Below, piece by piece: positions 24,231-27,532 of a stretch of DNA of 64,000 nt. The first letter of the stretch is position 1. Every line of letters starts with the position of its first letter. The translations under genes were made by a program, and so were the position numbers. This stretch comes from Marmoricola sp. (GTDB taxonomy: Bacteria; Actinomycetota; Actinomycetes; Propionibacteriales; Nocardioidaceae). The stretch is taken from contig JAOPYE010000010.1 in the NCBI GenBank assembly GCA_025964775.1, positions 62,001-126,000 on the forward strand, given 5' to 3'. Under the pieces are notes generated by a model. The model was not told the DNA's origin, ran no database searches, and was given only the letters and a program-made list of their open reading frames with translations.

Positions 24231-24689
24231 ATGAGCCAGGACGGGACCAGCGAACAATCCGAGCCGGGGCGCGGGACCGATCCCCGCACCGGTGAGTCGG
24301 CCGCTGCGCTGCGGATGCGGCACCAGGCCCGGTGGGTCGACCTGCAGATCCAGCAAGCCATGGCGCGTGGCGAGTTCGACGATCTCCCGGGCGCCGGGAA
24401 ACCGCTCGAATCCCTCGACAGCGACCCGGACTGGTGGCTCAAGCGCCTCATCGAGCGCGAACGGATCACCGGCGTCCTGCCCGAAGCGCTCCAGCTGCGC
24501 AAGGACGACGCCGAGCTCGACGCGATTCTCGACCGGGAGACCTCGGAGTCCGTCGTACGGGACCTGCTCGAGCAGTTCAACCGACGAATCATCAACGCCC
24601 GGCGCCAGCTCCAGGGTGGTCCGCCGGTGATCACCCCGCTGCGCGACACCGACGCGGACGTTACCTCTTGGACGGCGCGGAGGCGGTAG
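24231..24689 (+). CDS. DnaJ-homologue DUF1992 domain protein
   Basis: A 152-residue soluble protein. The segment WVDLQIQQAMARGEFDDLPG, then GKPLE, is the signature of DUF1992 (DnaJ homologue subfamily C member 28 type), though there is no J domain. The C-terminus is helical and charged. The ATG at 24231 follows AGGTGA. The last base triplet, its TAG stop, is the first three bases of the palindromic repeat at 24687-24745. Confidence 0.85.
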   Translation: MSQDGTSEQSEPGRGTDPRTGESAAALRMRHQARWVDLQIQQAMARGEFDDLPGAGKPLESLDSDPDWWLKRLIERERITGVLPEALQLRKDDAELDAILDRETSESVVRDLLEQFNRRIINARRQLQGGPPVITPLRDTDADVTSWTARRR

Positions 24690-24745
24690 TCCGGCACGTT
24701 TTGGCCCCCAATGGCGCTGATTTGGGGCGAGAACGTGCCGGACTA
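24687..24745. repeat. 59-base palindromic repeat, copy A, flanking the nuclease gene
   Basis: Left arm TAGTCCGGCACGTT and right arm AACGTGCCGGACTA are exact complements; the inner stem continues with a few mismatches through GGCCCC and GGGGC. It supplies a TAG stop to the DUF1992 gene on the plus strand and another to the nuclease gene on the minus strand. A related copy is at 25816-25873. It could also act as a bidirectional terminator. Confidence 0.85.
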
Positions 24746-25723
24746 TCGGTCTTGGAACCAGGGCGGAGCGTCGAGGGTCCAAGATCGCCGCGATGCCGGA
24801 AGGAACAGGGCGCGATTTCGGGCTGCGCGCATACGGCGTACGACGCGATCAGGGTCGCGGAGGTCCCCTCGCACGACGGTGAAGTACTCGAATCCATGGT
24901 CGCGGAACCGCTGTTCGCGTTCGATGTCACCTCGTCGACGGTCTCGCTCGAGGTGATCGACGCCGTCGTATTCGCCGATCACCCCAGCCACGGGATCCAA
25001 CAGGTCGGGATAGCCGAGAAGTTGACCCGCGAGGTCGAACACCGGGCTGTTGCACAGAGGTGGGGGCAAACCGGCGTCGAGAATCCAGACGAGCCTCATT
25101 CGGCTCTCCTGAGGCGACCGGCTGTGGTCGTGAGCAAGCGAGAGCGCCTGACGGACCAACGGCACACCCCGCCAGGCCGGCCGAATCGCGACGTAGCCGG
25201 CGAACGACTCGACCGCCGTCAAGCCGGCAGCTATCGCCATGTCGATCGCAACAGCGCCTTCGCGTTTCGTTCCGATGGCGCGGACCTCGTCGAACAGGGC
25301 ACGCGCCACGATCGAGCACCTCAAGCCGTCGACCTCCTCCATCTCCGCGGGAGGAAACTGCTCCTTGGTCACCGCCACACCGACGCTCGATCGGATGTTG
25401 TCCCCGGCACCGCCCAGCAGCATGGGCACTGGTCTGACAGAGCCGTCCAGAGAAAGACCCGTGAAGTACGAAGCGCCACGCCAGCGCAGCGAGGCCCAGC
25501 CGCTGACGGCCCCGCCGAGTGGCAGGCGAACCGCCTGGTCCACGATCCGTTGCTCCGCGGAGTCGGGCGCGCTGACCGGAACGAACCATCCCCGGCAGGC
25601 GCGCCGCCATTGTGGACCTCTCGCCTGCTTCGGCGTGGGCCCGCGAGCGCCTTCCCGGTCCGCCTTGACCGGATGGACGACCCGGATCGGCGCGCACCAC
25701 GGATCCCATTTTTCGCCTGCCAC
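24743..25723 (-). CDS. AbiEi-like/DUF559 protein with Vsr-type PD-(D/E)xK nuclease domain
   Basis: A protein of about 326 residues if started at the GTG at 25721-25723; the frame stays open upstream to 25825, so the true start is uncertain. The N-terminal part (RRACRGWFVP, GGAVSGWASLRWRGA) resembles AbiEi-type antitoxin-like proteins. The C-terminal domain has LLGYPDLLDPVAGVIGEYDG, then H, RGDIERE and a GFEYFTVV strand. These fit the Asp, Glu, Asp/His and Arg positions of DUF559/Vsr-like endonucleases, so it looks catalytically intact. The gene is bracketed by two copies of a palindrome and separates two parts of the hut region. Confidence 0.75.
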   Translation of the reverse strand: MAGEKWDPWCAPIRVVHPVKADREGARGPTPKQARGPQWRRACRGWFVPVSAPDSAEQRIVDQAVRLPLGGAVSGWASLRWRGASYFTGLSLDGSVRPVPMLLGGAGDNIRSSVGVAVTKEQFPPAEMEEVDGLRCSIVARALFDEVRAIGTKREGAVAIDMAIAAGLTAVESFAGYVAIRPAWRGVPLVRQALSLAHDHSRSPQESRMRLVWILDAGLPPPLCNSPVFDLAGQLLGYPDLLDPVAGVIGEYDGVDHLERDRRRGDIEREQRFRDHGFEYFTVVRGDLRDPDRVVRRMRAARNRALFLPASRRSWTLDAPPWFQDR

Positions 25724-25815
25724 TGATCCAAGATCGAAGAGGCTTTGGTGCGGCACATGGTGATGTCGCACGACAGTGGAAACGGCCGCTGATCGAGAGC
25801 CTGTGCGTGACCGAC

Positions 25816-25873
25816 AGTCCGGCACGAATTGGCCCCCGGATGGCCAATTTCAGGGCTAAAACGTGCCGGACTA
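25816..25873. repeat. Palindromic repeat, copy B, flanking the nuclease gene
   Basis: Outer arms AGTCCGGCACG and CGTGCCGGACT are exact complements, with an imperfect inner stem (GGCCC with GGGCT). The right end continues CTATCGCTC, close to CTATCGGTC after copy A. The bases CTA at 25871-25873 are the TAG stop codon of hutU on the minus strand. Confidence 0.85.
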
Positions 25874-27532
25874 TCGCTCCGTCATCGGCACCCGCACACC
25901 ACGGTCAGCGGCAACCTCGGCGGCCAGGTCGTACCCCGCGTCGACGTGCCGGATGACGCCCATGCCCGGGTCGTTGGTCAGCACCCGCTCGATCTTCTCG
26001 GCCGCGAGGGCGGTGCCGTCGGCGACGCAGACCTGGCCGGCGTGGATCGATCGACCCATGCCGACCCCGCCACCGTGGTGGATCGAGACCCAGGTCGCGC
26101 CGGAGGCGGTGTTGACCAGGGCGTTCAGCAGGGCCCAGTCCGCGATGGCGTCCGAGCCGTCCAGCATCGCCTCGGTCTCCCTGTACGGCGACGCGACCGA
26201 TCCGCAGTCGAGGTGGTCGCGGCCGATCACGATCGGTGCCGACAGCTCGCCCGAGGCGACCATCTCGTTGAACTTCAGCCCCGCGAGGTGCCGTTCGCCG
26301 TACCCGAGCCAGCAGATCCGCGCGGGCAGCCCCTGGAACTGGACGCGCTCCTGGGCCATCCGGATCCACTTCTGCAGCCGCGCGTTCTCGGGAAAGAGCT
26401 CAAGGATCGCTTCGTCGGTCTTGCGGATGTCCTCGGGATCACCGGAGAGCGCGGCCCAGCGGAAGGGTCCCTTGCCCTCGCAGAACAGTGGCCGGATGTA
26501 CGCCGGCACGAAACCCGGGAAGTCGAACGCACGGTCGTAGCCGCCCTTGCGGGCCTCGTCGCGGATCGAGTTGCCGTAGTCGAAGACCTCCGCACCGGCG
26601 TCGGCGAATTCGACCATCGCGCGGACGTGCGTCGCCATCGAGGCCTGCGCCTCCTTGGTGAACCCGGCAGGGTCGGCGGCTGCCGCGTCGTGCCAGTCCT
26701 CGAACGCGATCCCGGCCGGCAGGTAGGACAACGGGTCGTGCGCCGAGGTCTGGTCGGTGACGATGTCGATGGGCGCCCCGGACTCGAGCAGGGCACCGAA
26801 GCCGATGGCCGCGTTGCCCAGAACCCCGATGGACAGGGGCTTTCGGGCATCGCGCGCCTCGACTGCCAGCGACACTGCATGCGCGAGCGAGTCCGCCTGG
26901 ACGTCGAGGTAGCGGTGCTCGATCCGGCGCGTGATCCTGGACTGGTCGACGTCGATGCAGATCGCGACACCGTCGTTCATCGTGACCGCGAGCGGCTGCG
27001 CGCCGCCCATGCCGCCCAGGCCTGCGGTCAGGGTGATGGTGCCGGCCAGGGTCCCGCCGAACCTCTTGTCAGCGACGGCCGCAAAGGTCTCGAAGGTGCC
27101 CTGCAGGATGCCCTGGGTGCCGATGTAGATCCACGACCCTGCGGTCATCTGTCCGTACATCGTCAGGCCGAGGTCCTCGAGACGCCGGAACTCCTCCCAG
27201 TTGGCCCAGTCCCCGACCAGGTTGGAGTTGGCGATCAGGACGCGCGGGGCCCAGGGATGGGTGCGCATCACCCCCACGGGCTTGCCGGACTGGACGAGCA
27301 TCGTCTCGTCGTCCGCGAGGGTCGTCAGCGTGCGGACCAGGGCGTCGTACGACTCCCAGTTGCGTGCGGCCTTGCCGGTTCCGCCGTACACGACCAGGTC
27401 TTCCGGGCGTTCGGCGTTCTCGGGGTCGAGGTTGTTCATCAGCATCCGCAGGGGTGCTTCGGTCTGCCAGGAGCGTGCCGTGAGCGTGGTGCCGCGAGCG
27501 GCACGGATGGGCAGGCGTGGGTTGTCGTTCAT
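25871..27532 (-). CDS. hutU: Urocanate hydratase
   Basis: A 553-residue NAD-dependent lyase converting urocanate to 4-imidazolone-5-propionate, step two of histidine catabolism. The full length and conserved blocks are present: [42 protein letters not shown] (NAD site) and the central [19 protein letters not shown] segment. Its start overlaps the hutH stop by four bases (ATGA), so the two are translationally coupled. Its own stop codon is contributed by palindromic repeat copy B. Confidence 0.97.

Follow-up and report, generated by a model that had tools for sequence, protein, structure and literature searches.

The nuclease gene and its neighbours

The window, that is the whole stretch of 64,000 nucleotides analysed, carries a gene for a predicted AbiEi-like and EDxHD/Vsr-like nuclease (24743-25723, minus strand) within the hut region of a Marmoricola genome. 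The left neighbour encodes a protein with a DnaJ homologue subfamily C member 28 domain (PF09350; 23979-24689, plus strand, 5′ end uncertain). The right neighbour is the urocanase gene hutU (25871-27532, minus strand), which served both as flank and as control gene. The mechanical open reading frame of the nuclease (24743-25825, minus strand) runs into the palindrome on its right side. Judging from homologues, the start is likely the GTG at 25723, giving a protein of 326 aa.

The preliminary description named the product an AbiEi-like/DUF559 protein. This reading is based on its homologues and predicted fold, and not on family matches of the window protein itself, which had no Pfam or NCBIfam match at E 0.1 and matched AbiEi in PADLOC weakly (E 0.002). 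Foldseek on its own returned no PDB match at E 0.001, and the statement on the fold comes from a second-look alignment. The protein is predicted to consist of an AbiEi-like N-terminal part and a C-terminal nuclease of the Vsr/I-Bth0305I (EDxHD) type. Residues of the nuclease part are conserved across homologues; alignment A2 comprises the protein of the window and those of 35 of the 42 other loci, with L121 and L122 dropped because they are split between frames, and L125-L129 because they are weak. The dN/dS values of two orthologous nuclease pairs, 0.21 and 0.25, indicate purifying selection on the protein.

Relatives of the nuclease number 480 at E 1e-10. Among the best 120 of these, the named ones are annotated as hypothetical or as DUF559 proteins, and every entry with a stated organism comes from Nocardioides or Nocardioidaceae. 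The genome of the window encodes a third AbiEi-nuclease homologue (L350, G000:C34), found without bracketing repeats. One genus (G188, G134, G415 and others) contains at least 5 homologues per genome, the best 5 candidates of each having been scored. Some of them have in-frame stops, and this is possibly a lineage with expanded, decaying copies.

The palindromes of the window and its genome

Two copies of a palindrome flank the nuclease gene, at the positions first described. Copy A spans 24683-24749 (core 24689-24743) and copy B spans 25811-25877 (core 25817-25871); both are of the type termed alpha, with no strand assigned. The length of 59 bases given at first was too short: the cores measure 55 bases, and outer CGATA/TATCG-like bases extend each to a palindrome of 67 bases. 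The AGTCCGGCACG/CGTGCCGGACT arms are exact in both copies; inside these outer arms each copy has a GGCCCC/GGGGC-like inner arm and a loop that varies. The flanking CTATCG, described as shared, matches cleanly on the right side of both copies, but the left outer ends differ (GCGGTAG in copy A, CCGACAG in copy B). Copy A holds two stop codons, that of the left gene (24687-24689) and that of the nuclease, and the stop codon of hutU (25871-25873) lies inside copy B.

A two-arm pattern occurs at 6 places in the same genome (3.93 Mb in 53 contigs), with none for the reversed control. A covariance model built from these 6 places finds 14 at E below 1e-5. Eleven, including copies A and B, are of the alpha type with arms TCCGGCACG and three are of a sister type, beta, with arms TCCGGAGC. 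By arithmetic, two of 14 places would be expected within 1.2 kb of each other about 0.05 times, and the closeness of copies A and B is not due to chance. The sites in this genome, read by eye, are mostly extragenic; one (L018) may be inside a gene. REP palindromes are preceded by a GTAG head; here many copies have GATAG/GTAG at their outer ends, though as part of the palindrome itself, and other lineages lack it. Frequent occurrence of the palindrome away from the nuclease gene had been named as evidence against a link between the two. It is literally the case (12 of the 14 places), yet it is also expected of a REP-like element.

Bracketing of nuclease genes in other genomes

A homologue of the nuclease was found at E 1e-5 in 32 of the 39 genomes searched. 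For 42 such loci and the one in the window, the 350 bases upstream were compared with the 350 bases downstream. The threshold score of 49 is the maximum of 1294 overlapping shifted window pairs of equal spacing at the same loci (99th percentile 36), so that none of the 1294 exceeds it. Bracketing of the nuclease by a matched pair of repeats, as seen in the window, extends to other genomes at 30 of 43 loci above all controls, and 13 are not above the threshold. Of the 29 hutU loci in the same genomes, 26 were scored, the other three being truncated at contig ends, and none of the 26 exceeded 49. In 28 of the 30 bracketed loci the partner flank of the locus itself is a better match than the downstream flank of any of the 42 others.

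The bracketing repeats are mostly palindromes or imperfect hairpins with a lineage-specific sequence, the classes being a TAGTCC-class, GGCAGTTTCACCGG, CTCACAAACTGTGGGG, GAGAAGGAG and others. At some nuclease loci inverted repeats are present; in an IS-type transposon they would be terminal and accompanied by a target-site duplication, which was not evident at the one clean site. Three sets of more distant homologues were bracketed at 6/8, 16/28 (including one long non-palindromic duplication and several tandem repeats) and another 6/8 loci (one of low complexity). The cross-locus control for the 28-locus set has a 99th percentile of 36 and a maximum of 558, the latter because some loci share long sequence. 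Among the distant homologues, L072, L075, L129, L336 and L340 are flanked by tandem units of about 20 bases or more in place of palindromes.

A search that began from palindromes in genome G009 located a pair 1.24 kb apart which encloses an AbiEi_4 gene missed by the protein search. The arrangement of an AbiEi_4 gene between two GGCAGTTTCACCGG hairpin copies is seen at L190 (1514-2784, G009) and at L205 (G010).

Dispersed copies and the nuclease of the same genome

In G009 and G010 the hairpin next to the orthologous nucleases is found 22 and 17 times, respectively, and G002 has it once. It is absent from the 36 other genomes and the reversed control was zero; the pattern counts a hairpin common to two longer element types. 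Many dispersed GGCAGTTTCACCGG copies in these two genomes run on into a longer body, about 100 bases in all, that includes a half copy, GGGCAGTTTC. The palindrome of G037, a genome of another family in the same order, has 80 strand matches at about 40 places there (40 of 56 candidates scored), and none in two members of its family that lack a nuclease hit.

At the level of the genus, 67 dispersed palindromes were read in 12 genomes. Of these, 60 lie in the 10 genomes where a nuclease flank was recognised; for 42 of the 60 the best match was a flank of the same genome, with one tie. Permutation of the genome labels (20000 draws) gave a mean of 5.8 and a maximum of 40. The copies of G004, a sister species, had originally been picked through sites of the window's genome (G000). 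Leaving out G004 gives 36 of 54 and one tie, against a permutation maximum of 34, and leaving out both genomes gives 28 of 42, which was reached by 1 of 20000 draws. Outside this comparison were L109 (no palindrome recognised), L045 and L211 (unrecognised by the script), 7 copies from G001 and G014, for which no flank was recognised, and the G004 beta copies L258 and L260; L261 has only a degenerate copy. L211, an alpha copy in G004, is evidence against the matching of types.

Taken from the sequences compared, palindrome type and nuclease change together between lineages. In G008 (L121, G008:C46) the nuclease is split over two frames, while the palindrome model still has 30 strand matches there, at about 15 places; this population of palindromes lacks an evident intact enzyme.

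The hut site and the palindrome sites in relatives

G004 is the closest relative seen, its hutU being 95% identical over 1356 bases. At the same hut site the flanks are 93 and 96% identical and the enclosed nuclease only 50.5%; a beta palindrome adjoins hutU, and a remnant lies at the opposite end. A second homologue common to both genomes is 91.8% identical, and the nuclease at the hut site is thus more likely to have been exchanged than to have diverged slowly. Nucleases 58 and 55% identical occupy the site in G015 and G017, with yet other palindromes. The presence of the nuclease at this place in relatives without flanking copies had been named as an argument against a link; G015, G017 and G004 were instead found to have palindromes of their own, clear on one side only in G015 and G004.

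A hut locus without the gene and with a single palindrome of the same class was not found among the few relatives in which the neighbours are adjacent or one gene apart. That of G013 has no nuclease and no palindrome was found there. The locus of G018 also lacks the nuclease and has one palindrome, similar to that beside nuclease L106 of G016. Another gene occupies the site in G010 and G020.

The orthologous places in G004 were compared for the 12 other sites of the window's genome (3 beta and 9 alpha, of which L012, at a contig end, is uninformative). All three beta sites are intact in G004, and none of the 8 testable alpha sites is. At one of these the palindrome is absent with two bases left, and at another a beta palindrome stands in its place with identical 12-base outer ends. 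The remainder comprise one decayed alpha, one internal deletion, one 12-base remnant and three cases of other sequence. G001 carries alpha at two of the 8 sites (L018 and L019), so alpha is likely the older type there. One intact alpha copy is retained elsewhere in G004, and its other copies read are beta.

One site, maybe intragenic, has alpha in the window's genome (L018) and in G001 (L246, L214, G001:C71) and beta in G004 (L225, G004:C184), the outer ends being identical in the window's genome and G004. At another alpha site (L244, G004:C132) G004 contains a palindrome of a different family, CTAGG..TTTCGAGAC..GTCTCGAAACCTAG, which hints at other hairpin families at gene ends.

A probable REP-like system of nuclease and repeat

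The palindrome brackets the gene, is scattered through the genome and changes with the gene, and the nuclease therefore likely spreads or maintains its own repeat, comparable to the presumed role of unrelated transposases for REP repeats. The reading preferred here is a two-part REP-like system, in which the enzyme probably binds and cuts its own palindrome of about 60 bases and repair would copy the palindrome between sites. The analogy with REP elements and RAYT transposases drawn in the preliminary description holds in the comparisons of bracketing, dispersal, joint change of type and altered old-type sites. The comparative basis, taken from sequence, further includes the matching of copies to their own genome, the other nuclease block at the G004 hut site, the one in-place difference of type and the absence or alteration of old-type copies in G004.

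The AbiEi-like part raises the possibility of a regulator. AbiEi is reported to bind inverted repeats and to autoregulate through them (PMC7319586), and the N-terminal part of the nuclease protein matches AbiEi. As a DNA-binding protein of this kind, it would use the adjacent palindromes as autoregulatory operators and the scattered copies, several of which lie at gene ends, as regulon sites or terminator-regulators, its nuclease domain serving elsewhere. Operators are needed on the promoter side, however, and matched copies stand on both sides. Conservation of residues in the nuclease part is a further point against it, as are the G004 orthologues of the sites, which are absent, deleted or of another type, unlike those of a conserved regulon. 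This account is unlikely.

It is similarly doubtful that the palindromes are the ends and the non-autonomous copies of a miniature transposon, with the nuclease as a TnsA-like transposase responsible for excision and insertion. The one clean site, compared with G004, shows no evident target duplication, and where the type differs in place the outer ends are retained, in better agreement with conversion. No match to a phage or a plasmid was found at E 1e-5.

Bidirectional terminators of a locally favoured sequence, with the gene merely between convergent or tandem genes that need them, are very improbable. In their favour, strong hairpins adjoin stop codons, the genes on the two sides of copy A converge, and Rfam gave just three weak matches, all well short of the gathering score, which leaves room for an undescribed terminator. 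Against them, hutU in the same genomes has no matched pairs (0/26), the T run outside the arms is lacking at copies A and B, and the matching to nuclease type is left unexplained. Mobilisation of the palindromes as REPs by RAYT was rejected, as the Y1 HUH (RAYT-type) transposase PF01797 was not found in the 39 genomes (5 of 14 control genomes were positive), and cargo of a phage or plasmid was rejected, as tblastn gave no match at E 1e-5.

Under the REP-like system with its own nuclease, a dimer would read both arms of the palindrome through the AbiEi-like parts, and the EDxHD parts would cut within the loop or close to it. For I-Bth0305I, dimerization on nearly 60 base pairs has been described (PMC3943268). 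The break would be repaired from other copies, amounting to break-induced gene conversion of palindromes, and at the nuclease locus conversion could exchange the nuclease cassette between the palindrome ends. Such cutting and repair by a dimer would explain conversion at fixed sites, exchange of cassettes and loss on a change of type. The whole block may also move to new places. The arrival of palindromes at wholly new sites is the part that this model explains least.

A wider proposal is made more tentatively, and could well hold across the Actinomycetota. Orphan AbiEi-DUF559/Vsr-like genes would form a second, independently evolved class of REP system, encoding homing-type endonucleases that cut their own palindrome genome-wide and spread its types by gene conversion, the hairpins being kept, converted or lost with the type of the enzyme. 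To our knowledge, the only dedicated enzymes for REP-type repeats are the RAYT transposases, and the open-licence literature searched yielded no description of the pairing of nuclease and palindrome. The pairing of a lineage-specific palindrome with an unrelated nuclease would answer the long-standing puzzle of REP repeats in a second way. It would give a role to proteins now called hypothetical or DUF559, help to explain the hairpin repeats found in actinobacteria and provide dozens of natural pairs of enzyme and target, the targets being up to about 60-70 bases long.

Comparison with known systems

The hallmarks of REP/RAYT systems described in PMC2817692 are a gene bracketed by two palindromes, dispersed copies, a type that follows the gene and an abundance tied to the gene; the REPIN layout is described in PMC8049555. 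The flanking palindrome pair and the dispersed cognate copies resemble these systems, and the hallmarks, as given in PMC2817692, are largely present here. Unlike REP/RAYT, the predicted enzyme combines an EDxHD/Vsr-like nuclease fold and an AbiEi-like part in place of a Y1 HUH transposase, the copy numbers seen are in the tens, and cutting of double-stranded DNA would be a different chemistry. With no Y1 transposase found in the 39 genomes and a different fold predicted for the enzyme, the system is not a member of the REP/RAYT group.

The predicted EDxHD/Vsr-type catalytic domain is shared with the homing endonuclease I-Bth0305I, and the different nuclease block at the hut site of G004 would be compatible with homing-type copying. 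In contrast to I-Bth0305I, no intron or intein was recognised; the gene is free-standing between palindromes, the putative target exists in many scattered copies, and the N-terminal part is AbiEi-like. With respect to the AbiE type IV toxin-antitoxin system, the neighbours are the PF09350 DnaJ-domain protein and urocanase, with no AbiEii toxin gene, and the AbiEi-like part is fused to a nuclease. The system is set apart from Vsr very-short-patch-repair endonucleases and DUF559 proteins by this AbiEi-like part and by bracketing palindromes of its own.
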